A DNA stretch of 42,346 nt from an uncultured SAR86 cluster bacterium (GTDB lineage: Bacteria; Pseudomonadota; Gammaproteobacteria; Magnimaribacterales; Magnimaribacteraceae), in assembly GCA_938075195.1 (NCBI GenBank), contig CALJGK010000002.1, positions 1 through 42,346 of the forward strand, written 5' to 3'. The translations under genes and the position numbers were made by a program. This document shows positions 5,426 to 40,380 of the stretch, in pieces. The notes below the pieces were generated by a model, which did no database searches, was not told the DNA's origin, and was given only the letters and a program-made list of their open reading frames with translations. Within the stretch, counting starts at the first letter, position 1. Each line of letters opens with the position of its first letter.

Positions 5426-6382
5426 TTACATCGATGGAAGCTTACTTATTACATCATCTACTGAAATGGAATTTATATTGTTGTTAGAACCAACCAAATG
5501 TAATTGATTTTTTCCTTCAGTACCGATTAGCTTTGTATCTGTTGGTCCATAAAGAGTTATTGAAGGTGTATTTACTACAGCTGATAAGTGCGCAAGACCT
5601 GTATCGGAGCATACACTAAATTTAGCTTTTTTCATGATGTAAGCAATCTGATTCAAGGGCAGGGGTCTTAATACATGCGCTTTCTCTGAAAATGACGATA
5701 TTTTTAAAGCTCTTTGATATTCTTCTTCGTTTCCAGAAGGAAGAATCATTTCAATACCTGAATTATCTAAGTGCTTAACAAGTAATTGCCAGTTTGGTAT
5801 TGACCATTGTTTTGTTTTCCAACTAGCATTTTGTACCAGAGTTACATACTCACTAGGAAGATTAAATGAGGGTTCTTTAAACTCCAGATCAGAAATACCA
5901 TAATCATTTGAACTTGATGTTGAATATCCAAGTGCATTCGATAATAAAATTTTTTGTCTAGTAATCGCATGTAATTCCTTACTGATACTAATTTTTTTAT
6001 TATAGGAAAGATGGGCTGGATATTCTCTTACGCTTTTAGAATCCATACCTATTACTTGGTGTTTACACATAAACGATACAAAAGCGCTCTTAAGATTATT
6101 TTGCATGTCTATAACCAAATTATAGTTAGTGCTGTTAATTTCGTGTATTACAGATCTAAAAGCTTTTCGAGAATTAGGAGAAAGTAGCTGTTTTTTCCAG
6201 TTTCTATGATCTGTCGTAATAATTTTATTTACAGCTGGATGCCATTTAGGTACTTCCGAAAAGGATTTATCTACCACCCAATCAAATTCTATTTCTTTAA
6301 AATGCTCCTTAGCCTCTGTCAAGGCAGGGAGTGCATGCATGAGATCACCCATCGAAGTTAGCTTTATAATTAAAATCTTCAG
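5426..6382 (-). CDS. waaC: Lipopolysaccharide heptosyltransferase I-like (GT9)
   Basis: A GT9-family glycosyltransferase that adds heptose to the Kdo of the LPS inner core from ADP-heptose. The first ATG (6352) would cut off the conserved N-terminal strand. Reading upstream in frame gives KILIIKLTSMGDLMHALPAL, the typical WaaC opening, and the only usable start there is CTG at 6382-6380, with AAAGG about 9 bases before it. I therefore annotate 318 residues from CTG. The start must lie downstream of the in-frame TAG at 6391-6389, which is also the stop of the gene before it. The C-terminal half carries the nucleotide-sugar-binding region (SVCSDTGLAHLSAV and TLYGPTD). It is the last gene of a three-gene minus-strand unit. 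Heptosyltransferase I rather than II is preferred from the opening motif. Confidence 0.85.
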   Translation of the reverse strand: MKILIIKLTSMGDLMHALPALTEAKEHFKEIEFDWVVDKSFSEVPKWHPAVNKIITTDHRNWKKQLLSPNSRKAFRSVIHEINSTNYNLVIDMQNNLKSAFVSFMCKHQVIGMDSKSVREYPAHLSYNKKISISKELHAITRQKILLSNALGYSTSSSNDYGISDLEFKEPSFNLPSEYVTLVQNASWKTKQWSIPNWQLLVKHLDNSGIEMILPSGNEEEYQRALKISSFSEKAHVLRPLPLNQIAYIMKKAKFSVCSDTGLAHLSAVVNTPSITLYGPTDTKLIGTEGKNQLHLVGSNNNINSISVDDVISKLPSM

Positions 6383-9034: not shown

Positions 9035-9117
9035 ATTCTTAATAAATAATAATAAATAGAACGTACTTATCAAGTATTTTATTAATAAGTTGAGTTAGAA
9101 TACTTCGAGGAGATTTT

Positions 9118-10128
9118 GTGAAAAAACAACAAAGAGTTTTAACTGGAATTACTACTAGTGGAGAACCGCATTTAGGAAACCTAGTTGGTGCAATACTTCC
9201 TGCTATTCGTGCCAGTAACCAACCAGATACAGCATCATTTCTCTTTTTGGCAGACTACCATTCTTTAATAAAAAATACTGATTCTGATTTAACCCACACA
9301 TCTAGCTTGGAAATAGCGGCTTGTTGGTTGGCGTGTGGTTTAGATCCAGACAAAGTAACTTTTTATCGTCAATCTGACATTCCTCACATATTTGAATTAG
9401 CTTGGGTACTAAGTTGTTTAACCTCTAAGGGTCTCCTAAATAGAGCTCATGCCTATAAAGCTGCCATATCAGACAATGAACAACAAGGTACAAAAGACCT
9501 AGACAAGGGAATAACAATGGGCCTCTTTAATTATCCTGTTCTGATGGCCGCCGACATACTTATGTTTAATGCTGACTTTGTTCCGGTAGGGCAGGATCAA
9601 AAGCAGCATATAGAAATGGCTAGAGACATAGCTTTAAAATTTAATCACCATTATGGAGAATTACTAACTCCTCCTGAAGCACAAATTAATGAAGTTACTG
9701 GAATTCTTCCTGGATTGGACGGCAGAAAGATGAGTAAGTCTTATAACAATACTATTCCTGTATTTGCTAATGAAAAAGTCCTCAGAAAATCTATCATGAA
9801 AATACAAACAAATTCTTTAGAACCCGGAGAGCCTAAAGATCATGAGAATTGTAATATTTTCAATATATACAAGGCTATAGCCACAGAGTCTGAAGTATTA
9901 GATTTAAAAAAACAATATGAAGAAGGCATGGGTTGGGGTGATGCAAAAAATGTACTTTTTGAAAATCTCAATGAATTTGTATCGCCATTCAAACAAGAAT
10001 ACGAAAAGATTATGAAAGATAAGAATTTTGTAGAGTCGGTGCTAGTGGAGGGTGCAAATAAAGCAAAAGAATACTCTTCTCCGTTAATGAAACAAATAAG
10101 AGAATCTGTAGGAATCAAAGGATTTTAA
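9118..10128 (+). CDS. trpS: Tryptophanyl-tRNA synthetase
   Basis: A 336-residue class Ic aminoacyl-tRNA synthetase that charges tRNA-Trp. The HIGH-type signature is HLGN at residues 18-21 (SGEPHLGNLVGA), and the KMSKS loop is exact at residues 204-208 (GRKMSKSYNN). The segment LMAADILMFNADFVPVGQDQ is the tryptophan/dimer-interface region typical of TrpRS. The start codon is GTG 9118, preceded by GAGGAG a few bases upstream. Length is that of bacterial TrpRS. The stop TAA shares its last base with the ATG of the next gene, so the following unknown gene is likely translationally coupled. Confidence 0.97.
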   Translation: MKKQQRVLTGITTSGEPHLGNLVGAILPAIRASNQPDTASFLFLADYHSLIKNTDSDLTHTSSLEIAACWLACGLDPDKVTFYRQSDIPHIFELAWVLSCLTSKGLLNRAHAYKAAISDNEQQGTKDLDKGITMGLFNYPVLMAADILMFNADFVPVGQDQKQHIEMARDIALKFNHHYGELLTPPEAQINEVTGILPGLDGRKMSKSYNNTIPVFANEKVLRKSIMKIQTNSLEPGEPKDHENCNIFNIYKAIATESEVLDLKKQYEEGMGWGDAKNVLFENLNEFVSPFKQEYEKIMKDKNFVESVLVEGANKAKEYSSPLMKQIRESVGIKGF

Positions 10129-10694
10129 TGGACGGTCTTAAAGTATTATCTTTTAGTGAAAAATTTAAACTAACAAAGGATCAGCAGTTTACCATTCGTC
10201 TGCATGATCATGGGTTATTGCGGCTTATTCCTTTGTCCGTCGATGACGAATTACTGCAGGTAACAGATAAAATATTTTTTCATACTTTACTAAATTCAAG
10301 TACTTATCAAGAGCTTTTCTTTGATCACTTCAGTCAAAAGAGTGATGGTAAGCATGGACCCTTCTTATTAAAAACCATACAGGATGAAGATTTCATAGCC
10401 ATTAGTAATGATCATTTAAGAGAAGAGATTATCCAGACAGTGAGCTCTCCTAAATGGTCCTGCCCTGCGATCAGTAAAAGTAAATTATCTGAGGTAAAAA
10501 AACTACTAGATTTTTTAGTAAACGTAGATTCAAAATCTTACTTTCTAGAGAAATGTCTGACATTTAATTCCTCTTCTCAAGAAGCTATTGTCTATGAGCA
10601 TGAATGGTCTCATAGCTTAACCAGTTATTATGAGTACATTATTAAAGACATTAATAATAAAAAAGTTTTTCTACTCATAATCACCTATGAGTAA
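10128..10694 (+). CDS. Hypothetical protein, 188 residues
   Basis: Not recognised. The frame starts at an ATG overlapping the trpS stop by one base and runs into the MFS gene by 8 bases, so it is held tightly between two real genes and is very probably translated. The product is soluble-looking with no signal peptide or membrane segment, rich in Ser, Leu, Lys and Asp. It has several His and Trp residues in clusters (RLHDHGLLRL near the N-terminus, YEHEWSHSLTSYYEY near the C-terminus) and two Cys in the C-terminal half. These His clusters could bind a metal, but no known motif is formed. No function is proposed. Confidence 0.7.
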   Translation: MDGLKVLSFSEKFKLTKDQQFTIRLHDHGLLRLIPLSVDDELLQVTDKIFFHTLLNSSTYQELFFDHFSQKSDGKHGPFLLKTIQDEDFIAISNDHLREEIIQTVSSPKWSCPAISKSKLSEVKKLLDFLVNVDSKSYFLEKCLTFNSSSQEAIVYEHEWSHSLTSYYEYIIKDINNKKVFLLIITYE

Positions 10695-11937
10695 AGTCAC
10701 AGAAAAGCTTCCTAATACAATTTGGATTTTGGCGGCAGGTCTGCTCTGTGTGGGTGCTGGTCAATCTGTTATTTTTATAACCATCCCTCCAATTGCAAGA
10801 GACCTAGGATTAAATGAAATCCAGATTGGTTCAATATTCGCATCATCTGCCTTGGCTTGGATGATTTTAAGCCCTGTATGGGGCTCTCTTAGTGATTCAG
10901 TGGGTAGAAAGAAAATTGTTATTATAGGATTACTTGGATTTGCTATCTCTTTGATCTTATTTAGCTTTACGATTTCATTAGGTCAAAAGGAATTACTGAC
11001 AGGTGGCTTATTATTTTTTTTATTAGTTGCTGCTAGATTACTGAATGGTATGTTTGGAAGTGCAACCAGGCCTTCATCTGGTGCTTGGGTTGCTGATATC
11101 ACTTCAATTGATTCAAGGAGTAGAGCATTTGCAAGATTAGATTCCGGTTTTTCTATGGGCAGAATTCTTGGACCCGCTATTGCTGGATTACTACTCCTGG
11201 TTTCTTATACAGCTCCATTTTTTCTCTTTGCAGCTGGAGCTTTTATTGTAATTATATTTGTTGTTTTCCAACAATCTCCTTCTAAAGTCATTAACAAAGA
11301 AGCGGTTAAAAAACTTTCAATGTTTGATTCTCGTGTATGGCCTTTTCTGATTGTTTCAGCAGTATTTGGTATTTGTAACGCATCTTTAGTTCAGACTTCA
11401 TCTTTCTTTTTTCAAGATGTGATTATGCCTTCATCAGAAAACTATATAGCCTTTGCCAGTGTAGGCTTTATGTTGTCTGCATTGGGTGTTTTGAATGGCC
11501 AGTTACTTGTAGCTGATAGATTGCAAACCTCTCCAGGAACCTTAATTAAATTAGGAATAATTCTTAATTTCTTATCTCTTTTTGGATATGCCTTCAGTTC
11601 TTCCTTGGTTCAAGTCTATATATGCTTATTTTTTTATGGATTAGGCGGAGGTATGCTGGGTCCGGGGATATCATCATCTTTGTCTCTCTCTGTAGGTAAG
11701 GAGTACCAAGGCACCGCCGGTGGTTTTTTAGGTATGGTCATACCAGTAGGTCATGTAGTTTCACCAATTATTTCTATGCCTCTTTATATTATTAGTCCTT
11801 CTCTGCCTTATTTGCTCGGAGCCTGTTTGATGTTTTTTGCAGCAATTTTTATTTTCTTTAATAAACGTCATCAGTGGATTAGAGATAAGAGCTACAGGGA
11901 AGATAGAAATCTAGAAGTATTTGAAAATTCCCAATAA
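10687..11937 (+). CDS. MFS transporter, multidrug/tetracycline-exporter type
   Basis: A 416-residue major facilitator with about 12 membrane segments. The loop between segments 2 and 3 carries motif A (WGSLSDSVGRKK), and the fifth segment has a motif-C-like stretch (SMGRILGPAIAGLL). Together these mark the 12-helix drug:H+ antiporter (DHA1) group, i.e. proton-driven efflux across the inner membrane. The C-terminal tail (HQWIRDKSYREDR) is charged and cytoplasmic. It overlaps the preceding unknown gene by 8 bases. The actual substrate cannot be read from sequence; sugar or metabolite export is possible. It is the last gene of the trpS unit, since a 65-base gap with its own promoter-like box follows. 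Confidence 0.88.
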   Translation: MSKVTEKLPNTIWILAAGLLCVGAGQSVIFITIPPIARDLGLNEIQIGSIFASSALAWMILSPVWGSLSDSVGRKKIVIIGLLGFAISLILFSFTISLGQKELLTGGLLFFLLVAARLLNGMFGSATRPSSGAWVADITSIDSRSRAFARLDSGFSMGRILGPAIAGLLLLVSYTAPFFLFAAGAFIVIIFVVFQQSPSKVINKEAVKKLSMFDSRVWPFLIVSAVFGICNASLVQTSSFFFQDVIMPSSENYIAFASVGFMLSALGVLNGQLLVADRLQTSPGTLIKLGIILNFLSLFGYAFSSSLVQVYICLFFYGLGGGMLGPGISSSLSLSVGKEYQGTAGGFLGMVIPVGHVVSPIISMPLYIISPSLPYLLGACLMFFAAIFIFFNKRHQWIRDKSYREDRNLEVFENSQ

Positions 11938-11968
11938 GACTCTAAATGAGGGTTTATACAATATTATT

Positions 11969-11977
11969 TGTTATAGT
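11969..11977 (+). promoter_or_regulatory. Extended -10 promoter ahead of the SDR gene
   Basis: TG at 11969-11970 followed after one base by TATAGT (11972-11977) forms an extended -10 element. The SDR start at 12003 lies 25 bases further and is preceded by a strong AAGGAGAG ribosome binding site. No good -35 hexamer is visible, as expected for extended -10 promoters. Confidence 0.45.
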
Positions 11978-12002
11978 AGAGAGCTAAATTTAAGGAGAGA
12001 AA

Positions 12003-12893
12003 ATGTTTAAAGAAGACTTACTAAAAGGGAAGAGAATACTTGTAACTGGTGGTGGTTCAGGGCTAGGAAAGGAAATGTCTCGATACTTTCTTCAATATGG
12101 GGCCGAAGTATTAATTTGTGGAAGAAGAGTATCAGTGCTTGAAGAAACAGCAAAAGAACTTATGGACGAGCAGGGTGGTTCAGTCAAATGCTACGGATTA
12201 GATATAAGAGGTGCTCAAGATGTTGACAATACGATTAATGAGATTTTTGAAGAGGGTCCTATACATGGTCTTGTAAATAACGCTGCAGGAAACTTTATAT
12301 CCAGAACTGAAGACCTCTCTCACAGAGGCTTTGATGCTATCGCCAGTATTGTTTTTCATGGAACTTTCTACGTTACTCATTCAGTCGGAAAAAGATGGTT
12401 AGAGCTGGGTATGGGTGGAAATATCATCTCAATACTCGCCACATGGGTATGGACCGGTGGTGCTTTTACCGTTCCTTCTGCTATGTCCAAAAGCGGCATT
12501 TATTCAATGACTCAATCATTAGCTACAGAGTGGGGCAAAACAGGTATTAGGATCAATGCTATTGCACCTGGACCATTCCCTACCGAAGGAGCATGGGCTA
12601 GACTTTCACCAGGACAAGATCCTGATAAGGCATCTTCTGACTCAAGTAGTTATAGTCAAAATCCAATGGGAAGAGTAGGGGAAATGGAAGAGCTAGGAAA
12701 CTTAGCTACATTTTTAATGTCTGATGGGTGTAATTATTTAAATGGACAATGTATTGCAATAGATGGCGCTGAGTATCTTACAGGAGGAAACTTCTATAAA
12801 TCGCTATCACCTCTGAAAGATGAAGATTGGGATGCAATACGAGACACCATCAAGACAACAAACGATAAAGATAAAGCAAAAAGGTCAGTTTAA
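12003..12893 (+). CDS. SDR oxidoreductase resembling 2,4-dienoyl-CoA reductase
   Basis: A 296-residue short-chain dehydrogenase/reductase. The NAD(P)-binding glycine loop is TGGGSGLG at residues 15-22, with an Arg-Arg pair (CGRRVS) after the second strand that favours NADPH. NNAAGNF, APGP and AVEWG-like (LATEWGKTGIRINAIAPGP) segments match the DECR-type SDRs that reduce 2,4-dienoyl-CoA in beta-oxidation of unsaturated fatty acids. The usual YxxxK is Ser159-Ala-Met-Ser-Lys163, as in the DECR group, where Ser replaces Tyr. In mitochondrial DECR the replacement Tyr sits 11 residues earlier; here that place is Trp148. Substrate is therefore uncertain. It lies 17 bases ahead of an aldehyde dehydrogenase gene and shares its promoter. 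Confidence 0.82.
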   Translation: MFKEDLLKGKRILVTGGGSGLGKEMSRYFLQYGAEVLICGRRVSVLEETAKELMDEQGGSVKCYGLDIRGAQDVDNTINEIFEEGPIHGLVNNAAGNFISRTEDLSHRGFDAIASIVFHGTFYVTHSVGKRWLELGMGGNIISILATWVWTGGAFTVPSAMSKSGIYSMTQSLATEWGKTGIRINAIAPGPFPTEGAWARLSPGQDPDKASSDSSSYSQNPMGRVGEMEELGNLATFLMSDGCNYLNGQCIAIDGAEYLTGGNFYKSLSPLKDEDWDAIRDTIKTTNDKDKAKRSV

Positions 12894-14375: not shown

Positions 14376-15620
14376 ATGAAAAATATATCTATTTTTTTAG
14401 CACTCAAATATTTTCGTCCTAGAAGAAAAGGGTTTGTTTCATTTCATTCTGGGATGGCCATATTTGGCATCACACTGGGTCTTACAATTCTGATATTGGT
14501 GACTTCTGTAATGAATGGTTTCCAAAGAGAATTAAAAGATAGGATTTTAGAAACTATTCCTCACGCCTCGATACTTGGTGATATACAAATTGATGATTTT
14601 GTCTCAATCAGAGATACGCTTAATGAAAATCCCGAAGTAAAGGGAGTTGCACCTTACATAGAAACGCAAGGGTTGGTAAGTTCAGGTTCTTTTCTTAAAG
14701 GTATTTATTTATTTGGAGTGGAGCCAAAGTATGAAAAAACGGTTTCGGCTATAAATGATCATATAGTTGAGGGCGCTTTTAATAGTCTTGAAGCAGATGG
14801 CTACAATCTTATAGTTGGTGACATTCTTGCCTTTCAACTTGGAATAAAAGTAGGAGATTTTATAAACGTTCTTGTTCCTGATACTGGATTGGGTCTAGCT
14901 GGGATATTTCCAAGAACTAAAAAATTTAAAATAAGTGCAATTTTTAGCGTTGGCGCACCTGAATTGGATCAAAGTTTTGCTTATATGAATATTTCAAATG
15001 CATCAAAATTATTAAGAATGAATGATTCTATCAATGGAGTTAGAATTAAGTATCGAGATCTATTTGCTGCTGATTATCAAGTAAAGTCAGACCTGGCGAA
15101 TTTACAAGAATCTAGAGAGCAAAGATATCAGTCAAGTACTTGGAAGCGAAACTACGGCACTTTATTTGAGGCTATTCAGAATGAAAGATTTTTAGTGGCT
15201 TTAATGTTATTCATGCTCATAGTACTTTCGGCATACAACTTGATGTCAATGTTGGTGATGACAGTGAATGAAAAAAAGCCTCAGATTGCTATTCTCATGA
15301 CCATGGGCGCAACAACCGCAACCATTAGAAATATATTTTTAATTTTTGGAAGCTTGGTTGGATCTATGGGGATTTTATTTGGCTGCTTACTAGGCTTAAT
15401 AGTTTCTTTGAACTTCGGACTGATAATCGATTTCTTGGAGTCCTTAACAGGCGTGAGCTTTTTGCAAGTCTACTTCATAGACTATTTTCCAATTGATATT
15501 AGGTTTGAATGGATTTCTACAATTTGCATTATTACTTTCCTTTTCTGCTTAATATTTACAATTTATCCAGCAAGACTAGCTTCTAAAATTGATCCAGTGG
15601 AGGTTCTAAAGTATGAGTAA
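14376..15620 (+). CDS. LolC/LolE-family lipoprotein-releasing permease
   Basis: A 414-residue inner-membrane subunit of the Lol ABC transporter that lifts lipoproteins out of the inner membrane and hands them to LolA. The order is typical: one N-terminal membrane helix (about residues 25-48) after ALKYFRPRRKGF, a large periplasmic MacB-like domain (about 50-265), then three C-terminal helices, with the conserved region YNLMSMLVMTVNEKKPQIAI. The gene overlaps lolD by 8 bases. Only one LolC/E-type gene is present here, where many Gammaproteobacteria have lolC-lolD-lolE. It may act as a homodimer (a LolF-like arrangement), unless a second copy lies elsewhere. The symbol is left blank for this reason. 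Confidence 0.92.
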   Translation: MKNISIFLALKYFRPRRKGFVSFHSGMAIFGITLGLTILILVTSVMNGFQRELKDRILETIPHASILGDIQIDDFVSIRDTLNENPEVKGVAPYIETQGLVSSGSFLKGIYLFGVEPKYEKTVSAINDHIVEGAFNSLEADGYNLIVGDILAFQLGIKVGDFINVLVPDTGLGLAGIFPRTKKFKISAIFSVGAPELDQSFAYMNISNASKLLRMNDSINGVRIKYRDLFAADYQVKSDLANLQESREQRYQSSTWKRNYGTLFEAIQNERFLVALMLFMLIVLSAYNLMSMLVMTVNEKKPQIAILMTMGATTATIRNIFLIFGSLVGSMGILFGCLLGLIVSLNFGLIIDFLESLTGVSFLQVYFIDYFPIDIRFEWISTICIITFLFCLIFTIYPARLASKIDPVEVLKYE

Positions 15621-16272
15621 GCAAATTTTAGAAGTGCAAAATATTTCTAAAATATTTGAGGCAAATGATTCATCTTTAACTGTATTAGATAACTTCTCTC
15701 TATCTTTGAATAAAGGAGAAAGTCTAGGGTTAATAGGCGCATCAGGTTCTGGCAAGTCTACACTTTTACATATTATCTGTGGATTAGAGCAACCAAACTC
15801 TGGCAAGGTGTTCGTCAAAGGAGAAAATATTACAGAGTTAAACTCTGATGAACGATCTGTTTTCAGGAACAAAGAAATAGGATTTGTTTATCAGTTTCAT
15901 CATCTTCTATCGGAATTATCAACATTGGAAAATATAGCCTTACCGGCAATGCTATCGGGCAAATCAAAAGATGAAGCTCTTACCAAGGCACAATCTCTAT
16001 TATCTCAAGTAAACCTAGATGGTAAGGAAAAGAATAATCCAAATCAATTGTCTGGCGGAGAAAGGCAACGAGTAGCCATAGCAAGATCTATGTCAAATGA
16101 TCCATCGTTTCTTGTAATGGATGAGCCTACTGGTAATTTGGATAGTCAGAATGTTCAAATTTTTATGGACCTTTTAATGAATATGATTTCAGAAAAAGAT
16201 ATTACTTTGATTATTGCAACTCATGACCAAAATGTCTCTAGTCGACTGAATAGGCTCTTAAGCTTAGAATAG
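15613..16272 (+). CDS. lolD: Lipoprotein-releasing ABC transporter ATPase
   Basis: A 219-residue ATP-binding subunit that powers lipoprotein release with the LolC/E permease whose gene it overlaps. Walker A is GASGSGKST at residues 42-50. The ABC signature is LSGGERQRVAIAR, Walker B is FLVMDEPTGNLD, and the H-loop His occurs in IIATHDQ. The YQFHHLL segment at the Q-loop is characteristic of LolD compared with other MacB-class ATPases. Length is typical. It ends 4 bases before the MsbA-LpxK start, so the lipoprotein and LPS export genes appear to be one operon. Confidence 0.95.
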   Translation: MSKQILEVQNISKIFEANDSSLTVLDNFSLSLNKGESLGLIGASGSGKSTLLHIICGLEQPNSGKVFVKGENITELNSDERSVFRNKEIGFVYQFHHLLSELSTLENIALPAMLSGKSKDEALTKAQSLLSQVNLDGKEKNNPNQLSGGERQRVAIARSMSNDPSFLVMDEPTGNLDSQNVQIFMDLLMNMISEKDITLIIATHDQNVSSRLNRLLSLE

Positions 16273-16276
16273 TGTA

Positions 16277-19081
16277 ATGGGTAAAAGGAATAAGGAGTTA
16301 TCCAGCTTAAAACTATACGGTAGATTACTTTCTTATGTCTTGCCTTATATTCCTTTGTTTATATTAAGTATCTTAGGTTTTGCTATATATTCTGGCTCTC
16401 AAGTAGCGGCTACAGAATGGTTAAAAAGAGTTATAGATCACGTCAATAATCCAGTTGCCGATCTACGTTTAATACTTCCCTTGGCATTAATAGCAATAGC
16501 TTTCGTTAGAGGTTTAGGCTTCTTTGTTGGTAATTACCTCCTATCTTCGATTTCTAATCGATTGGTTCATAACATCAGAACAGAACTTTTTCGAAAGTTA
16601 ACCGTACTTCCCAGTTCTTATTATGACCTGCATAGCTCAGGTCATTTAATTTCAAGAATTACATTTAATGTAATGCAAGTGACTGGTGCAGCAACTAATG
16701 CATTAAAGATTTTCATAAGAGAAGGCCTGCTCGTGATCGGCTTGATCACATACCTAATGTTTTTAAATTGGAAACTTGCTCTTTTCCTTTTTATCGCTGC
16801 TCCTTTTATAGCTTTAATAGTTGGTGTTGCTGCCAAAAGATTAAGAAAGATAAGTGGAAAAATTCAAACAGCCATGGGAGATGTAACACATGTAGCATCT
16901 GAAACGATTAATGGATATGAGGAAGTTAAGTCCTTTGGTGGGGAAGAGTACGAAATAAAAAGATTTAATCTGGCAAGCGACAATAACAGAAAACAGAACC
17001 TAAAATTGGAGGCTACAAATTCTATTGCTTCCCCTTTAGTGCAGATGTTTGTATCAGCAGCTCTAGCACTCATAACTTGGTTAGCTTTAGATGCTTCTGT
17101 TGTTTCTGAAATGACACCTGGGACTTTCATTGCTTTTTTTAGTGCTGCCGGCATGCTTGCTAAACCTGTTAGACAGCTTTCTGAGATAAATAGTCAAATA
17201 CAAAAAGGTCTTGCTGCAGCCGAGGATATCTTTGATCAATTAGATGAAGAGCCAGAAAAGAATGAAGGTTTACATTCAGCTACAAGTATTGAAGGAAAGA
17301 TAAGTTTTGATTCTGTTTCTTTTTCTTACAAGGGACTTTCAAATAATGTTTTGAGTGATATAAATCTTCAAATAGAAGATGGTGAGTCTGTTGCTTTCGT
17401 CGGTAAATCTGGAGCAGGTAAAACAACTTTAATGAGTTTAATACCAAGATTTTATGATGATTTTGAGGGAGAAATTAAAGTTGATGACATCTCGTTAACT
17501 GATTACGACATAAAAAATCTTAGATCACATATAGCCCTGGTCAGCCAAAATATTACTCTTTTTAATGACACTATTGCCAACAACATAAACTACGGCGGCT
17601 CTGAAAGAAGCTTAGAAGAAATTAAGATAGCTGCGAAGAAAGCAAATGCTCATGAATTTATAGAAGCACTTCCTGATGGTTATGAAACAACGGCAGGCGA
17701 CGATGGGGTCTTGTTATCAGGAGGCCAGAGACAAAGAATAGCAATAGCAAGAGCGATCTTGAAAGATGCACCTATATTAATTCTTGATGAAGCTACATCT
17801 GCTCTTGATTCTGAATCAGAAAATTATATTCAAGAAGCGCTTCAAGAATTAACACGTAATAGGACCACTCTGGTTATAGCTCACAGATTATCAACGATTG
17901 AAAACTCGGACAAAATCGTAGTGCTAGAGCATGGAAAGATTGTTGAAGTTGGTAATCATGAAACACTCATTTCTCAGGATGGTAAATATGCAGAGTTGCA
18001 TAGAAATCAATTCAAAGATGACCCAACTCAAACGAAAGATAAAGACTTAATGCCAGAACTAGTAGAGCAGGATATTAATGATTTATCTTCTGTAAGTTTT
18101 ATTGAACAAAGCTGGTATCAAAATAAGTTATGGCTTTGGCTCTTATGGCCACTTTCGATCTTGACTAAATTTGCTGCTCAACGAAAAAGAGAAAGATTCA
18201 CCAACCAACCAAAATTATCGTGGAAACCAGATGTGCCTGTAATTGTTGTAGGTAATATTGTTGTGGGTGGCACAGGTAAAACACCTATGGTGATTTGGCT
18301 TACTAAGCTTTTAGAGAGTAGGGGATATAAGCCAGGTATCGTCTCTAGAGGCTATGGAGGGAATTCCTCAAAAAATCCAATAATTGTAGATAATGATACC
18401 TCAGTAAAACTCAGCGGTGATGAACCAATTATAATTTTTAAGAATACCTCTAGGCCGGTTTGTATATCTTCAAATAGGATTGCTGCCATAAGAAAATTAT
18501 TGCTTGATACGGACACGGACATTGTTATTAGCGATGATGGTTTACAGCACTATAAGATGGATAGAGACCTAGAGATTGTGATATTTGATGGAAACAGGGG
18601 AATAGGAAATGGATTATGTTTACCTGCTGGCCCATTACGAGAACCTCTTGAGCGTATAGAGGCAGCTGATTTCGTTGTGAGTTCTTCTAAGGTTGTAGAG
18701 CTGGACACTAAACACAATAAGTATTTAATGAATTATCAACCCATTGAATGGGCAAGAATAGTGGACAATAAAAGATTTAAGGCAAATGCGTGGCCTTTGT
18801 CAAAAAATGTTCATGCGGTAGCTGGGATAGGTAATCCAGCTAAATTTTATAAAACACTCTCTAGTTTAGGCTTAAACCCTATTCAGCATAGCTTTCCTGA
18901 TCATTATCAATTTCTTGAAGAGGATCTTGATTTTAATGATTCATTACCCATTATAATGACAGAGAAAGATGCTGTCAGATGCCTAGATATGGATAATAAG
19001 AATCTATGGTATTTATCCGTTGAAGCTAAGTTCGAAGACGAGGAGATTGCAGATAAAATTATAAATAAACTTGCGAAATAA
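16277..19081 (+). CDS. msbA-lpxK: Fused lipid A flippase (MsbA) and lipid A 4'-kinase (LpxK)
   Basis: A 934-residue single frame joining two consecutive lipid A enzymes. Residues 1 to about 580 are MsbA, the ABC exporter that flips lipid A-core: six membrane segments, Walker [10 protein letters not shown] at 376-384, signature LSGGQ at 480-484, Walker B ending Asp504-Glu505. Residues from about 603 are a full LpxK, the kinase that phosphorylates the 4' position of the disaccharide: an N-terminal membrane-associated helix (WLWLLWPLS), P-loop [12 protein letters not shown] at 659-670, then SRGYGG and DDGLQH at 753-758. A linker of about 25 polar residues ([11 protein letters not shown]...) joins them without a stop. 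ATG 18050 in the linker has no ribosome binding site. In most relatives these are two separate neighbouring genes. Both halves look intact. Confidence 0.93.
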
Positions 19082-19083
19082 TA

Positions 19084-19260
19084 ATGATTAAAATTGATAA
19101 AAAACTTTTAGATATCCTAGTTTGTCCTGTATCTAAAGATTCTCTGGAGCAAATTGGTGATGAGCTTGTTTGTAAAACAAGTAAGCTTGCTTATCCTATT
19201 AAAGATGGTATCCCTGTGATGCTTCCTGAAGAGGCTAGAAATCTCTCTGATGAGCTTTAA
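19084..19260 (+). CDS. Trm112-family zinc-ribbon-like small protein
   Basis: A 58-residue protein of the Trm112/YcaR family, starting 2 bases after the kinase stop. It opens [16 protein letters not shown] and continues with a Cys in [21 protein letters not shown], the family pattern. In bacteria this gene sits between lpxK and kdsB, exactly as here, and related proteins act as small partners of methyltransferases. The usual CPxC zinc knuckle is only partly kept (CPVS then a single Cys), so zinc binding may be lost, as in many proteobacterial YcaR proteins. Its last 11 bases overlap the kdsB start. Confidence 0.88.
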
Positions 19261-19969
19261 GGTTCTTATTCCTGCAAGACTTGGCTCAACGAGGTTACCC
19301 GGCAAACCCCTAAAAGAAATTGAAGGTAAAACCTTAATCCAAAGAGTTGTAGGGCAGGTTAAAGAGAGTAAGGCTGATTCAATACACGTAGCTACAGATT
19401 CTCAAGAAATTATCGAACACTGTGATCTGAACGGAATAAAATCAGTCCTAACTAGCACCAATCATCAAACAGGTTCAGATAGACTTGCCGAAACTTGTGA
19501 CGTGCTTCAATTCATGGATGATGATATCGTTATTAATGTTCAAGGAGACGAACCTTTCATAGACCCAAAAGATATCGATAATTTAGCTAATCTTGCCGCA
19601 GAAAAGAACGCCAATATGGTCACTCTTTTTTCTGATTTAAAAGAAAATGATCTAAATGACCAAAATGTAGTAAAAATCTGGATAGGATCGAATGGTTTGG
19701 TTGAAGACTTTTCGAGAGAAGGAAATAAGTTAGATATAGCAAGAGCTAAAAAGCACCTTGGAATTTATGGATATAAAGCTGGTTTTTTAAGATCTTTTGT
19801 TTCCTGGCAACAAACACATAATGAAATTGAAAGGAATTTAGAGCAAATGAGGGCTATGGATAATGGAGAGATGATTTTTGCCACTGAATCAGTTGGTAAA
19901 TTCCATTTAGGAGTTGATACTGAAACTGACTTAAAAAGAGCAATTGAAATAGCTAGGCAAATTAAATGA
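19250..19969 (+). CDS. kdsB: CMP-Kdo synthetase
   Basis: A 239-residue 3-deoxy-manno-octulosonate cytidylyltransferase, which activates Kdo with CTP for transfer onto lipid A. The N-terminal nucleotide-binding signature [15 protein letters not shown] is exact, followed by the [10 protein letters not shown] segment and the HLGIYGYK and ETDLKRA motifs typical of KdsB. Length matches the family. The start ATG 19250 lies inside the end of the Trm112 gene and the stop overlaps murB by 4 bases, so it sits in a tightly coupled envelope operon. It supplies the Kdo step between the lipid A kinase upstream and the heptosyltransferase encoded elsewhere in the window. Confidence 0.97.
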
Positions 19970-20964
19970 AGTTTGTAGAACAGTATTCTTTATCAAACTT
20001 GAATGCTTTAAAAGTTAAAGAGAAGGCTAATTTCTTCTGTGAACTTACAAAAGAGAATGAACTAGTTGATATTGTAGAGTTTTCAAAAGTTAATAATTTA
20101 CCTATTATTTTGATAGGAGAAGGAACAAATATAGTACCAATAAATTCGATTGAAGGATTAGTGGTTAAAAATTCTTTAAAAGGAATTAAGGTTATTGATG
20201 AAGATACAACAGAGGTAGCTTCAGGTGAGAATTGGCATGATTTTGTAAAATGGACTCTTTTAAACAATAAATTTGGCTTGGAAAATCTAGCCTTAATACC
20301 AGGCACTGTTGGTGCTGGACCGATACAAAACATAGGAGCTTATGGGTCTGAAATATCAAGTTCAATAAAAAAAGTTTTAGTTTTCAATGTTGATACTAAT
20401 GATTATGAAACTCTAACAAATGAGCAATGTGAATTTGGCTACAGAACTAGTGTCTTTCAAGAAAGGCGAGAACTACTAATTTTATCTGTAACTTTCACTA
20501 CAAGCTCTCATGCTAAAGTTAATACATCCTATCAGTCGTTAAAAGATGAGATCCACTTACAGGGACTGAATGATTCTAGTATAAGTCCAAAAAAAGTCTT
20601 TGATTTAGTGGTTGATGTTAGAAAGCGTGTCCTACCTGACCACCATGTCTATCCTAATGTGGGTAGTTTCTTTAAGAATGTTTTAATCAATAAAAAAGAT
20701 ATTGATACTTTAAATTTAGATGCAGAAATTCCTACATATGATGTTGGCGATTCAATAAAAATACCCTCTGCATACCTTTTAGAGAAACTTGGATGGAAAG
20801 GAAAAAAAAAGGGGGATGTAGGTATGTCGGCCCAACATTCACTAGTCTTAGTTTCCTATGAGCAAGTTACAGGTAATGAAATTTTAAGTTTTGCAAACGA
20901 AGTCATAAATGATGTGCATTTGAAAACTAATATTAAATTAGAAATTGAACCAACTTTATTGTGA
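19966..20964 (+). CDS. murB: UDP-N-acetylenolpyruvoylglucosamine reductase
   Basis: A 332-residue FAD enzyme that reduces UDP-GlcNAc-enolpyruvate to UDP-MurNAc in peptidoglycan synthesis. FAD-binding segments IGEGTNIV and LALIPGTVGAGPIQNIGAYG are present. The type I MurB motif FGYRTSVFQE is complete, and the catalytic serine is Ser234 in NVGSFFKN, with a conserved Glu near the C-terminus (KLEIEPTLL). The longer form with the YRxSxFQ motif is the type I enzyme of Gammaproteobacteria. It overlaps kdsB by 4 bases and the exporter gene by 4 bases. A possible tyrosine/threonine variation around the motif is within family range. Confidence 0.96.
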   Translation: MKFVEQYSLSNLNALKVKEKANFFCELTKENELVDIVEFSKVNNLPIILIGEGTNIVPINSIEGLVVKNSLKGIKVIDEDTTEVASGENWHDFVKWTLLNNKFGLENLALIPGTVGAGPIQNIGAYGSEISSSIKKVLVFNVDTNDYETLTNEQCEFGYRTSVFQERRELLILSVTFTTSSHAKVNTSYQSLKDEIHLQGLNDSSISPKKVFDLVVDVRKRVLPDHHVYPNVGSFFKNVLINKKDIDTLNLDAEIPTYDVGDSIKIPSAYLLEKLGWKGKKKGDVGMSAQHSLVLVSYEQVTGNEILSFANEVINDVHLKTNIKLEIEPTLL

Positions 20965-38907: not shown

Positions 38908-40380
38908 ATGAAAAAGGAACAACCAGACAAACGAATCAGACCTGATCTCCCCAAAGATCCTTTTGGCGATTTCCAATATAGACAAGCTTTAGCTGAAGAG
39001 ATGCTGCCTATGATAGGTCGTATCTTTAGAGATAATGTCCATCTGTTGTTATATGGAAAACCACTAGTCAACTTATCTGTCTCAGAGATCATGAATGCTC
39101 ACAGGTTTGTTAGAGAAGCTGAAAATAATGAACTGAGTGAGTTTGAAACCTATCAGGTTATAGTTGCTCTTAGCGAACTAGAGCTAGGGCCTGCTGAAAT
39201 TGATATAGGTATTATTGCTGCTGCTTATTTATTCGACGACAAAGATCTCTCTTTGGAAGACTTTGTTAATGATGCTATAGCTGATCTTATAGGAAAAAAG
39301 GGATCTATACTTGATCAAGCACAAGATGTTGTTTTGTATGGTTTTGGAAGAATTGGAAGATTACTTACCAGAATGCTTATAGAAGATTCTGGTGGTGGAG
39401 ACAACTTAAGATTACGAGCAATTGTTGTCCGAAAGGCTATAGATGGCGATATCATCAAAAGAGCAAATTTAATGCGAACAGATTCTGTTCATGGCCCATT
39501 TAAAGGAACAGTTCGGGTTCTGGAAGAGGAAGATAAACTTATTATTAATGGCAATGAAATAAAAATTATCTACGCAAATAATCCTTCTGAGATTGATTAT
39601 ACGGATTACGATATTAACAATGCCTTGCTAATCGATAATACAGGTGTCTGGAGATCTAAAGATGATCTAGGCATCCATCTACAATGTAATGGAATTACGA
39701 GAGTTCTTCTAACGGCACCAGCCAAAGACGGTATCAAGAATATTGTCCACGGCATCAATAATGAAATCATTGATAATGACAGCATTCTTGGAGCTGCTTC
39801 TTGTACCACCAATGCCATTGTTCCTACTCTAAAAGTTCTTAATGATGAATTCGGAATTGTTTCAGGTCATATAGAAAGTGTTCATTCTTATACGAATGAT
39901 CAAAATCTTATAGATAATTTCCATAAGAAAGAGAGAAGAGGAAGAAGTGCAGCCTTGAATATGGTCATTACAGAAACTGGAGCGGGTAAAGCTGTTGGAC
40001 AAGTTTTGCCTGAATTAATTGGAAAACTTACTGCGAACGCAGTGAGGGTTCCTACACCTAATGTATCTTTAGCTATTATGAGCCTTCAGCTCGGGCAAGA
40101 ATTATCTACAGAAGAACTTAATAATTTTTTGCGACAAAAGGCATTTCATTCTAATTTGAAAGAACAAATAGGATTTACAAATTCTCCTGAAGTCGTTTCA
40201 ACTGATTTTGTTGGTGATAGGCACGCTGGGATTATAGATTCAGCAGCTACTATAGTTAACAATGATAAGTGTGTTTTGTATGTGTGGTACGACAATGAGT
40301 TTGGTTATACTGCTCAATTATTAGGATTAGCTAAGGAAATGGTTGGCTTAACCTATGAAAGATATCCAAATTTTGGATAA
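38908..40380 (+). CDS. Long-form glyceraldehyde-3-phosphate dehydrogenase
   Basis: A 490-residue GAPDH with an N-terminal extension of about 140 residues. The NAD loop GFGRIGR starts at residue 145, the active-site cysteine is Cys299 in AASCTTNAIVP, and the C-terminal WYDNEFGYTAQL is family-typical. The extension (FGDFQYRQALAEEMLP...) is that of the long GAPDH beside mfd and nqrA in Pseudomonas and relatives, the same neighbourhood as here. Its ATG follows the previous stop without a gap. Whether it runs in the glycolytic or gluconeogenic direction cannot be read; the canonical short GapA would be elsewhere if present. Confidence 0.9.
   Translation: MKKEQPDKRIRPDLPKDPFGDFQYRQALAEEMLPMIGRIFRDNVHLLLYGKPLVNLSVSEIMNAHRFVREAENNELSEFETYQVIVALSELELGPAEIDIGIIAAAYLFDDKDLSLEDFVNDAIADLIGKKGSILDQAQDVVLYGFGRIGRLLTRMLIEDSGGGDNLRLRAIVVRKAIDGDIIKRANLMRTDSVHGPFKGTVRVLEEEDKLIINGNEIKIIYANNPSEIDYTDYDINNALLIDNTGVWRSKDDLGIHLQCNGITRVLLTAPAKDGIKNIVHGINNEIIDNDSILGAASCTTNAIVPTLKVLNDEFGIVSGHIESVHSYTNDQNLIDNFHKKERRGRSAALNMVITETGAGKAVGQVLPELIGKLTANAVRVPTPNVSLAIMSLQLGQELSTEELNNFLRQKAFHSNLKEQIGFTNSPEVVSTDFVGDRHAGIIDSAATIVNNDKCVLYVWYDNEFGYTAQLLGLAKEMVGLTYERYPNFG

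Follow-up and report, generated by a model that had tools for sequence, protein, structure and literature searches.

A conserved fusion of msbA and lpxK in one reading frame of SAR86 bacteria

The window analysed here is a whole stretch of 42,346 nucleotides from a draft SAR86 assembly (1,394,053 bases, 67 contigs, 83% complete). On its forward strand, the frame at 16277-19081 is open throughout, from an ATG at 16277 to a stop at 19079-19081, and encodes 934 residues. A first-pass annotation of this DNA had proposed that MsbA and LpxK are joined in this frame with no stop between them, and the reading frame itself, Pfam, NCBIfam and the relatives described below all confirmed it. The features of the locus are the following.

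14376..15620, + strand: FtsX/MacB-type permease, LolC/E-like (name inferred), upstream neighbour (Pfam)
15613..16272, + strand: ABC ATPase, LolD-like (name inferred), upstream, ending 4 bases before the fusion (Pfam)
16277..19081, + strand: whole fused msbA-lpxK gene, 934 aa (reading frame, Pfam, NCBIfam)
16277..18013, + strand: MsbA half, residues 1-579 (TIGR02203 above cut-off; alignment to E. coli K-12)
16361..17161, + strand: ABC transporter transmembrane region, residues 29-295 (PF00664, ABC_membrane)
17351..17800, + strand: nucleotide-binding domain, residues 359-508 (PF00005, ABC_tran)
within 17351..17800, + strand: ATPase motifs, with Walker A at 376-384, LSGGQ at 480-484 and Walker B D504/E505
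18014..18097, + strand: linker, residues about 580-607 (variable sequence, near-constant length per family, predicted disordered)
18098..18202, + strand: LpxK N-terminal hydrophobic/amphipathic helix region, residues 608-642 (model helices 608-614 and 618-642)
18134..19069, + strand: LpxK kinase domain, residues 620-931 (PF02606, TIGR00682, structure match 4ehx)
18266..18286, + strand: LpxK P-loop GGTGKTP, residues 664-670 (K668 and T669 in 149/149 SAR86 frames)
18533..18550, + strand: LpxK DDGLQH motif, residues 753-758 (conservation in 149 SAR86 frames)
19250..19969, + strand: kdsB, CMP-Kdo synthetase type (PF02348; name inferred from family and place), downstream neighbour
19966..20964, + strand: murB (PF02873), downstream neighbour

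The three Pfam domains of the frame (ABC_membrane, ABC_tran and LpxK) all scored far over their cut-offs. The MsbA half is complete: It reached 703.4 bits with the NCBIfam equivalog TIGR02203 (cut-off 602), is identical to E. coli MsbA at 251 of 580 aligned positions, and by eye its Q578-F579 align with the QF close to the C-terminus of the E. coli protein. With a second MsbA model, NF008381, it scored 612 and did not reach the cut-off of 867. The LpxK half (residues 608-934) is complete as well, with 252 bits for TIGR00682 (cut-off 92) and about 346-349 bits for PF02606 (cut-off 27), and F608 aligns by eye with the initiator Met of E. coli LpxK. The N-terminal helix of LpxK, for which excerpts of PMC6286764 describe a membrane-associating role, is kept in the fusion, where AlphaFold predicts helices 608-614 and 618-642 with moderate confidence. 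The motifs of both halves lie where the first-pass annotation had placed them (Walker A, signature LSGGQ and DDGLQH at the positions listed above), with the H-loop H536 just past the nucleotide-binding domain, and the LpxK P-loop at 664-670 falls inside the wider 659-670 that it had given. The linker it had described is present too, but its extent of about 580-603 was slightly short; by alignment we place it at about 580-607.

The same continuous frame is shared by relatives. At the genus level, LpxK matched in 12 of 19 genomes, and all 12 matches lay in frames of 937-943 aa. At the order level, 158 of 203 genomes gave an LpxK match, 154 of them one match only, and the genomes at least 90% complete gave one in 35/40. 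LpxK was not found in 45 of the 203 genomes of the order, most of them incomplete, but 5 of the 40 near-complete ones among them. We examined the loci of all 150 matches listed, one per genome, and in 149 of them the LpxK frame also holds MsbA sequence (26/26 in family f1, 28/29 in f2, 79/79 in f3 and 16/16 in f4), part of these 149 showing MsbA incompletely where the stored locus starts inside MsbA or the contig ends (G157, G176). The one locus left over, G066, is truncated at a contig end. None of the 149 frames has a stop in the linker, and none of the 150 loci carries the two genes separately; both results speak for the fusion. In the public records, the fusion was present in 31 of 33 SAR86-type loci, the other two (L069 and L099) being cut by contig ends; these records are MAGs and other drafts, and the AG-numbered ones are presumably single cells. 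In one of the 149 frames (locus L121, from G118), the MsbA half is broken by frame changes in the assembly and the kinase half is open. The window does come from a draft of 67 contigs, in which an assembly or sequencing error could have removed a stop. This reading is refuted by the relatives, since the same unbroken frame recurs in 149/150 SAR86 loci and in 31/33 public-record loci, and its probability is practically negligible. The MsbA-LpxK join in SAR86 is old, conserved and real.

The residues expected for activity are retained in both halves. In the ATPase, D504, E505 and H536 are invariant in 149/149 SAR86 frames, and Walker A K382 is present in all 148 frames that reach this position, with one gap. 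The ABC motifs are complete in the window protein, and the signature reads LSGGE rather than LSGGQ in 16 of the 149 frames. R78 and R148 of the MsbA half are identical to E. coli, and position 299 is Arg, a basic exchange; we take R78, R148 and K299 of E. coli MsbA to be the basic side chains around the headgroup of bound lipid A. In the kinase, K668, T669, D715, E716, D753, D754, H758 and H876 are invariant in all 149 frames. Within the DDGLQH motif, D753, D754, G755, Q757 and H758 are present in 149/149, and L756 is replaced by Met in 8. Aligned by eye, K668, D715, E716, D754, H758 and H876 correspond to K51, D99, E100, D139, H143 and H261 of A. aeolicus LpxK, whose positions and roles are given in passages of PMC6286764. 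The dN/dS ratio was taken from the two close pairs whose dS was usable, more distant pairs having saturated or undefined values; it was 0.03-0.04 for MsbA, 0.07-0.09 for LpxK and 0.16-0.22 for the linker. Purifying selection acts on both halves, and we infer that both may be active, that the protein may stay whole and that the coupling may be kept by selection. Because LpxK is a single match in 154/158 genomes and the next-best MsbA-like match listed in the window's genome scored only 62 bits, the fused gene seems to supply both the MsbA and the LpxK functions in this genome, which is 83% complete.

The surroundings of the fusion are conserved as well. The order permease, LolD-like ATPase, fusion, kdsB-type gene and murB is kept in 33/33 SAR86 loci with enough flank, namely 31 fused loci from public records together with L124 and L126. 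About 1 kb separates the LolD-like gene from the fused gene in L071 (4987-5977) and in L126 (1301-2288), compared with almost no gap in the other SAR86 loci inspected. The window also carries a family 9 (heptosyltransferase-type) glycosyltransferase at 5426-6352 on the minus strand, and its presence suggests that this SAR86 has an LPS inner core.

The segment between the two halves differs from them in its constraint. The mean sum of squared residue frequencies is 0.19 in the linker vs 0.52-0.61 in the domains. Its length between fixed points stays within 30-35 residues in f1, 29-31 in f2, 30-32 in f3 and 20-22 in f4. In the AlphaFold model (mean pLDDT 71.9, pTM 0.43), pLDDT falls below 50 over residues 579-606. 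The linker of about 28 residues is therefore predicted to be disordered, as a tether would be; a model with a pTM of 0.43 is too weak to place the kinase relative to the flippase. An in-frame ATG within the linker or among the first 12 residues of LpxK was found in 39 of the 149 SAR86 frames and is absent from 110, so that a separate LpxK start is not conserved; this count covers ATG, with GTG and TTG left out. A Shine-Dalgarno-like site before an internal ATG or GTG occurred in 0/149 SAR86 frames. As a control, the same search was applied close to the true start of the gene, where it was positive in just 14 of the 125 SAR86 frames with upstream sequence. The missing internal sites therefore say little, we dropped them as an argument against a split product, and SAR86 may rely little on such sites at the start of the fused gene. 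Family f4 (G182-G202) shows lower LpxK scores and longer branches than the other families, along with its shorter linker of 20-22 residues.

Outside SAR86, we found the fusion in four Gammaproteobacteria: G266, the single genome of its family in the sample, and G287, G568 and G569, which are three of the four sampled genomes of the G287 family, the fourth (G410) having separate genes. The draw from the class gave LpxK in 347 of 369 genomes. The best 150 matches were listed, none of them SAR86, and among these three frames exceeded 900 aa, of which G266 and G287 are true fusions and G566 is not. The draw from the phylum gave LpxK in 366 of 397 genomes and, among the matches listed, a single additional long frame, that of G643, in which the two genes are not fused. 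Further fusions may exist among the weaker matches of both draws. Frame length alone is insufficient for recognising a fusion, since G566 (L113, 950 aa) and G643 (L251, 968 aa) mimic one while their msbA overlaps in another frame. The frames of 479-569 aa in G495, G409, G286, G285, G337 and G324 likewise proved not to be MsbA fusions, and in L092 and L102 both halves match but in separate frames. The first-pass annotation had held that the two genes are separate in known Gram-negatives and often adjacent. The first part needs correcting for the four genomes above. Among 20 other Gammaproteobacteria sampled, msbA lies within about 3.5 kb upstream of lpxK in 12, and the genes are unfused in 20/20. 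In E. coli K-12, the last 4 bases of msbA are also the first 4 of lpxK. Given this overlap and the nearness of msbA in 12/20, the route to fusion is likely short, requiring the loss of a stop between overlapping or neighbouring genes.

Phylogenetic trees were used to count the origins of the fusion. FastTree was run on 52 rows (28 SAR86, 4 other fused and 20 separate) and a quick tree on 35 rows (11 SAR86, 4 other fused and 20 separate), with uneven letter make-up flagged in 17 of the 35. The separate rows came from 31 unfused loci tried, 11 of which were left out as no msbA was found beside lpxK. SAR86 formed one clade on the MsbA tree and on the joint MsbA+LpxK trees; on the 35-row joint tree its SH-aLRT support was 100, and its sister (99) was G564/G643, which have separate genes. 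On the LpxK-only FastTree, SAR86 was not one clade, and f4 grouped with a long Kangiellaceae branch. All fused rows as one clade were rejected (AU, p 0.0049), and so was a clade of SAR86 with the G287 family (p 0.0041). SAR86 with G266 (p 0.108) and G266 with the G287 family (p 0.191) were not rejected. Because a single clade is rejected and each of the latter two pairings is compatible with the data, the fusion has at least two independent origins.

To interpret the fusion, the order of the pathway has to be considered. According to excerpts of PMC6286764 and PMC12444477, the product of LpxK is lipid IVA, on which WaaA glycosylation, LpxL/LpxM acylation and the core enzymes act before MsbA flips core-lipid A, and MsbA is less active on earlier intermediates. 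WaaA-type (PF04413) and LpxL/M-type (PF03279) proteins are each encoded by separate genes in 39 of 41 SAR86 genomes, the window's genome included. The same two genomes, G060 and G062, lack both matches. As the two genes are often only a few kb apart, a single gap in the assembly could account for both misses. Since these enzymes act in between, the product of LpxK is probably not the normal substrate of MsbA in SAR86, and gene content indicates, indirectly, that the enzyme's product is not the direct substrate of the transporter. This goes against the substrate channelling from kinase to flippase that had been suggested for this protein, in which the kinase domain would pass lipid IVA straight to the flippase. 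The physical fusion would suit such a hand-over, and so would the ability of E. coli to survive exporting lipid IVA, which makes LpxK the last absolutely required step (in passages of PMC6286764). Besides the 39/41 genomes with each intervening gene family, however, a kdsB-type gene follows the fusion in 33/33 loci, the window contains the heptosyltransferase-family gene, and G014 has a gmhA-like gene (by eye). With all these genes present, the core is probably begun before flipping, and we consider direct channelling decidedly improbable.

We lean, with a little better than even confidence, towards a bifunctional protein in which kinase and flippase are kept together at a fixed 1:1 ratio. The stop between two neighbouring operon genes would have been lost in a SAR86 ancestor, and the fused gene would yield one bifunctional inner-membrane protein. 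Its N-terminal half would dimerise as the MsbA flippase for core-lipid A, and its C-terminal half, on a flexible linker of ~28 residues and with its own membrane helix, would be the cell's LpxK, producing lipid IVA on the cytoplasmic side of the membrane. The benefit would not be direct hand-over, since the steps of WaaA and LpxL/M have to come in between. It would be proximity and fixed stoichiometry, with two kinases per flippase dimer, so that the flow into the late, essential pathway steps could not outrun export capacity. In E. coli, msbA and lpxK are co-transcribed (excerpts of PMC4412817 and PMC10328246). The portions of PMC4412817 consulted estimate LpxK at about 2.1 times MsbA and present a model including regulation, in which LpxK is the rate-limiting step and its substrate is the feedback signal for LpxC degradation. 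Tying the LpxK step to the number of flippases would, we infer, stop late lipid A synthesis from exceeding what can be exported. The preferred bifunctional protein is supported by the single frame in 149/150 loci, the invariant residues, the tether-like linker, the lack of a conserved kinase start and the at least two origins. On the other hand, a 1:1 ratio is not obviously favourable, given the E. coli excess of LpxK, and protein-level proximity is not generally needed, because all 20 sampled other Gammaproteobacteria are unfused, 12 of them with msbA nearby. Fission is generally rarer than fusion, and long conservation alone is therefore no proof of benefit. The arrangement of the halves left unfixed by the model, the splitting of SAR86 on the LpxK-only tree and the 5/40 near-complete genomes without an LpxK match also weigh against it.

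The main and serious rival is a neutral merger, in which the stop separating two overlapping genes of one operon was lost in a small, streamlined genome, each half does its work unaided and the join as such is without function. Such a merger would persist, as re-splitting needs a new start site. It accords with the 4-base overlap of msbA and lpxK in E. coli, with msbA close upstream in 12/20 sampled Gammaproteobacteria, with the small genomes of SAR86 and with a linker whose sequence is hardly constrained. Nevertheless, at least two independent origins, the absence of any split in 149/150 loci of four families (the remaining locus being cut) and a linker length that is near-constant within families all argue against it, and we give it a real chance, clearly short of even. 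The halves may also come apart after synthesis or start separately: One chain cut in the linker, or a partial internal start, would give separate MsbA and LpxK. The predicted disorder and the in-frame ATG in or near the linker of 39/149 SAR86 frames would permit this. No internal ATG is conserved, however, with 110/149 frames having none, and, the linker being less conserved than any other part, no common protease site is evident; a split product is accordingly improbable in our judgement.

A further lead concerns LapB, which in E. coli is a scaffold joining LPS enzymes to transport and the partner of FtsH in LpxC turnover (excerpts of PMC8745692). Among 41 SAR86 genomes, the LapB zinc-ribbon model PF18073 matched nowhere over its cut-off and once below it, in G061; this model is short (28 positions) and unspecific, with matches in 10 of 14 control genomes, which makes its absence alone weak evidence on LapB. 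The E. coli order is lapA-lapB-pyrF, and in Gammaproteobacteria lapB usually lies between ihfB and pyrF. We sought the rpsA place in seven SAR86 genomes (G040, G034, G135, G179, G190, G014 and G049) and found it in the first six, and in 6/6 lapB was not at its expected place beside pyrF or after ihfB (loci L288 of G040, 9059-12659; L304, L308, L311/L312, L314 and L300). The order in G040 is cmk-rpsA-ihfB-LapA-like frame-pyrF, the LapA-like frame having 83 aa and 21.8 bits, under the cut-off of 28. A similar LapA-like frame stands directly before pyrF in G034, pyrF directly follows the ihfB match in G135 and G179, and in G190 the pyrF match begins at the end of the rpsA match with no ihfB seen. 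In G014, of the window's genus, ihfB is followed by gmhA-like, LapA-like and pgi-like genes (by eye). A short LapA-like frame thus remains in 3/6 lapB-less loci, by a weak or by-eye match. A phmmer search without filters with E. coli LapB against 733,315 bases of SAR86 sequence gave a best E of 0.38. With LapB apparently missing, one may ask how SAR86 keeps LPS and phospholipid in balance. SAR86 might have lost LapB and a 1:1 kinase-flippase unit might have taken over part of the LPS checkpoint, throttling lipid IVA by flippase number or state; we hold this to be doubtful, with a small chance of being right, and if true the fusion would belong to an alternative system for matching LPS synthesis to export.

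Overall, each half resembles a known protein and departs from it at the join. The N-terminal half is like the MsbA flippase (TIGR02203; 9bd6, 8gk7, 7met and 6bpl) in its full length, its motifs and its best sequence and structure matches; unlike MsbA, the chain runs on into a second enzyme after the nucleotide-binding domain. The C-terminal half is like the tetraacyldisaccharide 4'-kinase LpxK (TIGR00682, PF02606; A. aeolicus 4ehx/4itl/4lkv) in its whole domain, its ATP- and lipid-site residues and its N-terminal helix, but is joined to a transporter C-terminus and lacks its own conserved start codon. The two genes, their order and their strand are those of the msbA-lpxK neighbours of E. coli K-12, where by contrast two proteins are made from genes overlapping by 4 bases. 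A close parallel in the pathway is the LpxC/FabZ fusion, which we take to consist of two soluble enzymes. That fusion, described in passages of PMC3087551 for Bacteroidetes, Chlorobi and Verrucomicrobia, likewise merged two neighbours of one lipid A gene cluster. Unlike LpxC/FabZ, which acts near the start of the pathway, the SAR86 fusion combines an enzyme with a transporter several steps apart. The first-pass annotation knew of no described MsbA-LpxK case, and we likewise found no description of one in the titles, abstract beginnings and passages of the open-licence PMC literature.

SAR86 are abundant ocean bacteria, and here proteins that are normally separate are encoded as one long protein. 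MsbA is essential in E. coli. So is LpxK, and both are discussed as antibiotic targets (excerpts of PMC4412817 and PMC6286764). The fusion makes the vague idea of physically coordinated LPS enzymes and export machinery testable in laboratory E. coli through a single gene. Elsewhere in the window, at 38908-40380 on the plus strand, lies a glyceraldehyde-3-phosphate dehydrogenase-like protein of 490 aa, with ~140 residues ahead of its NAD-binding domain.
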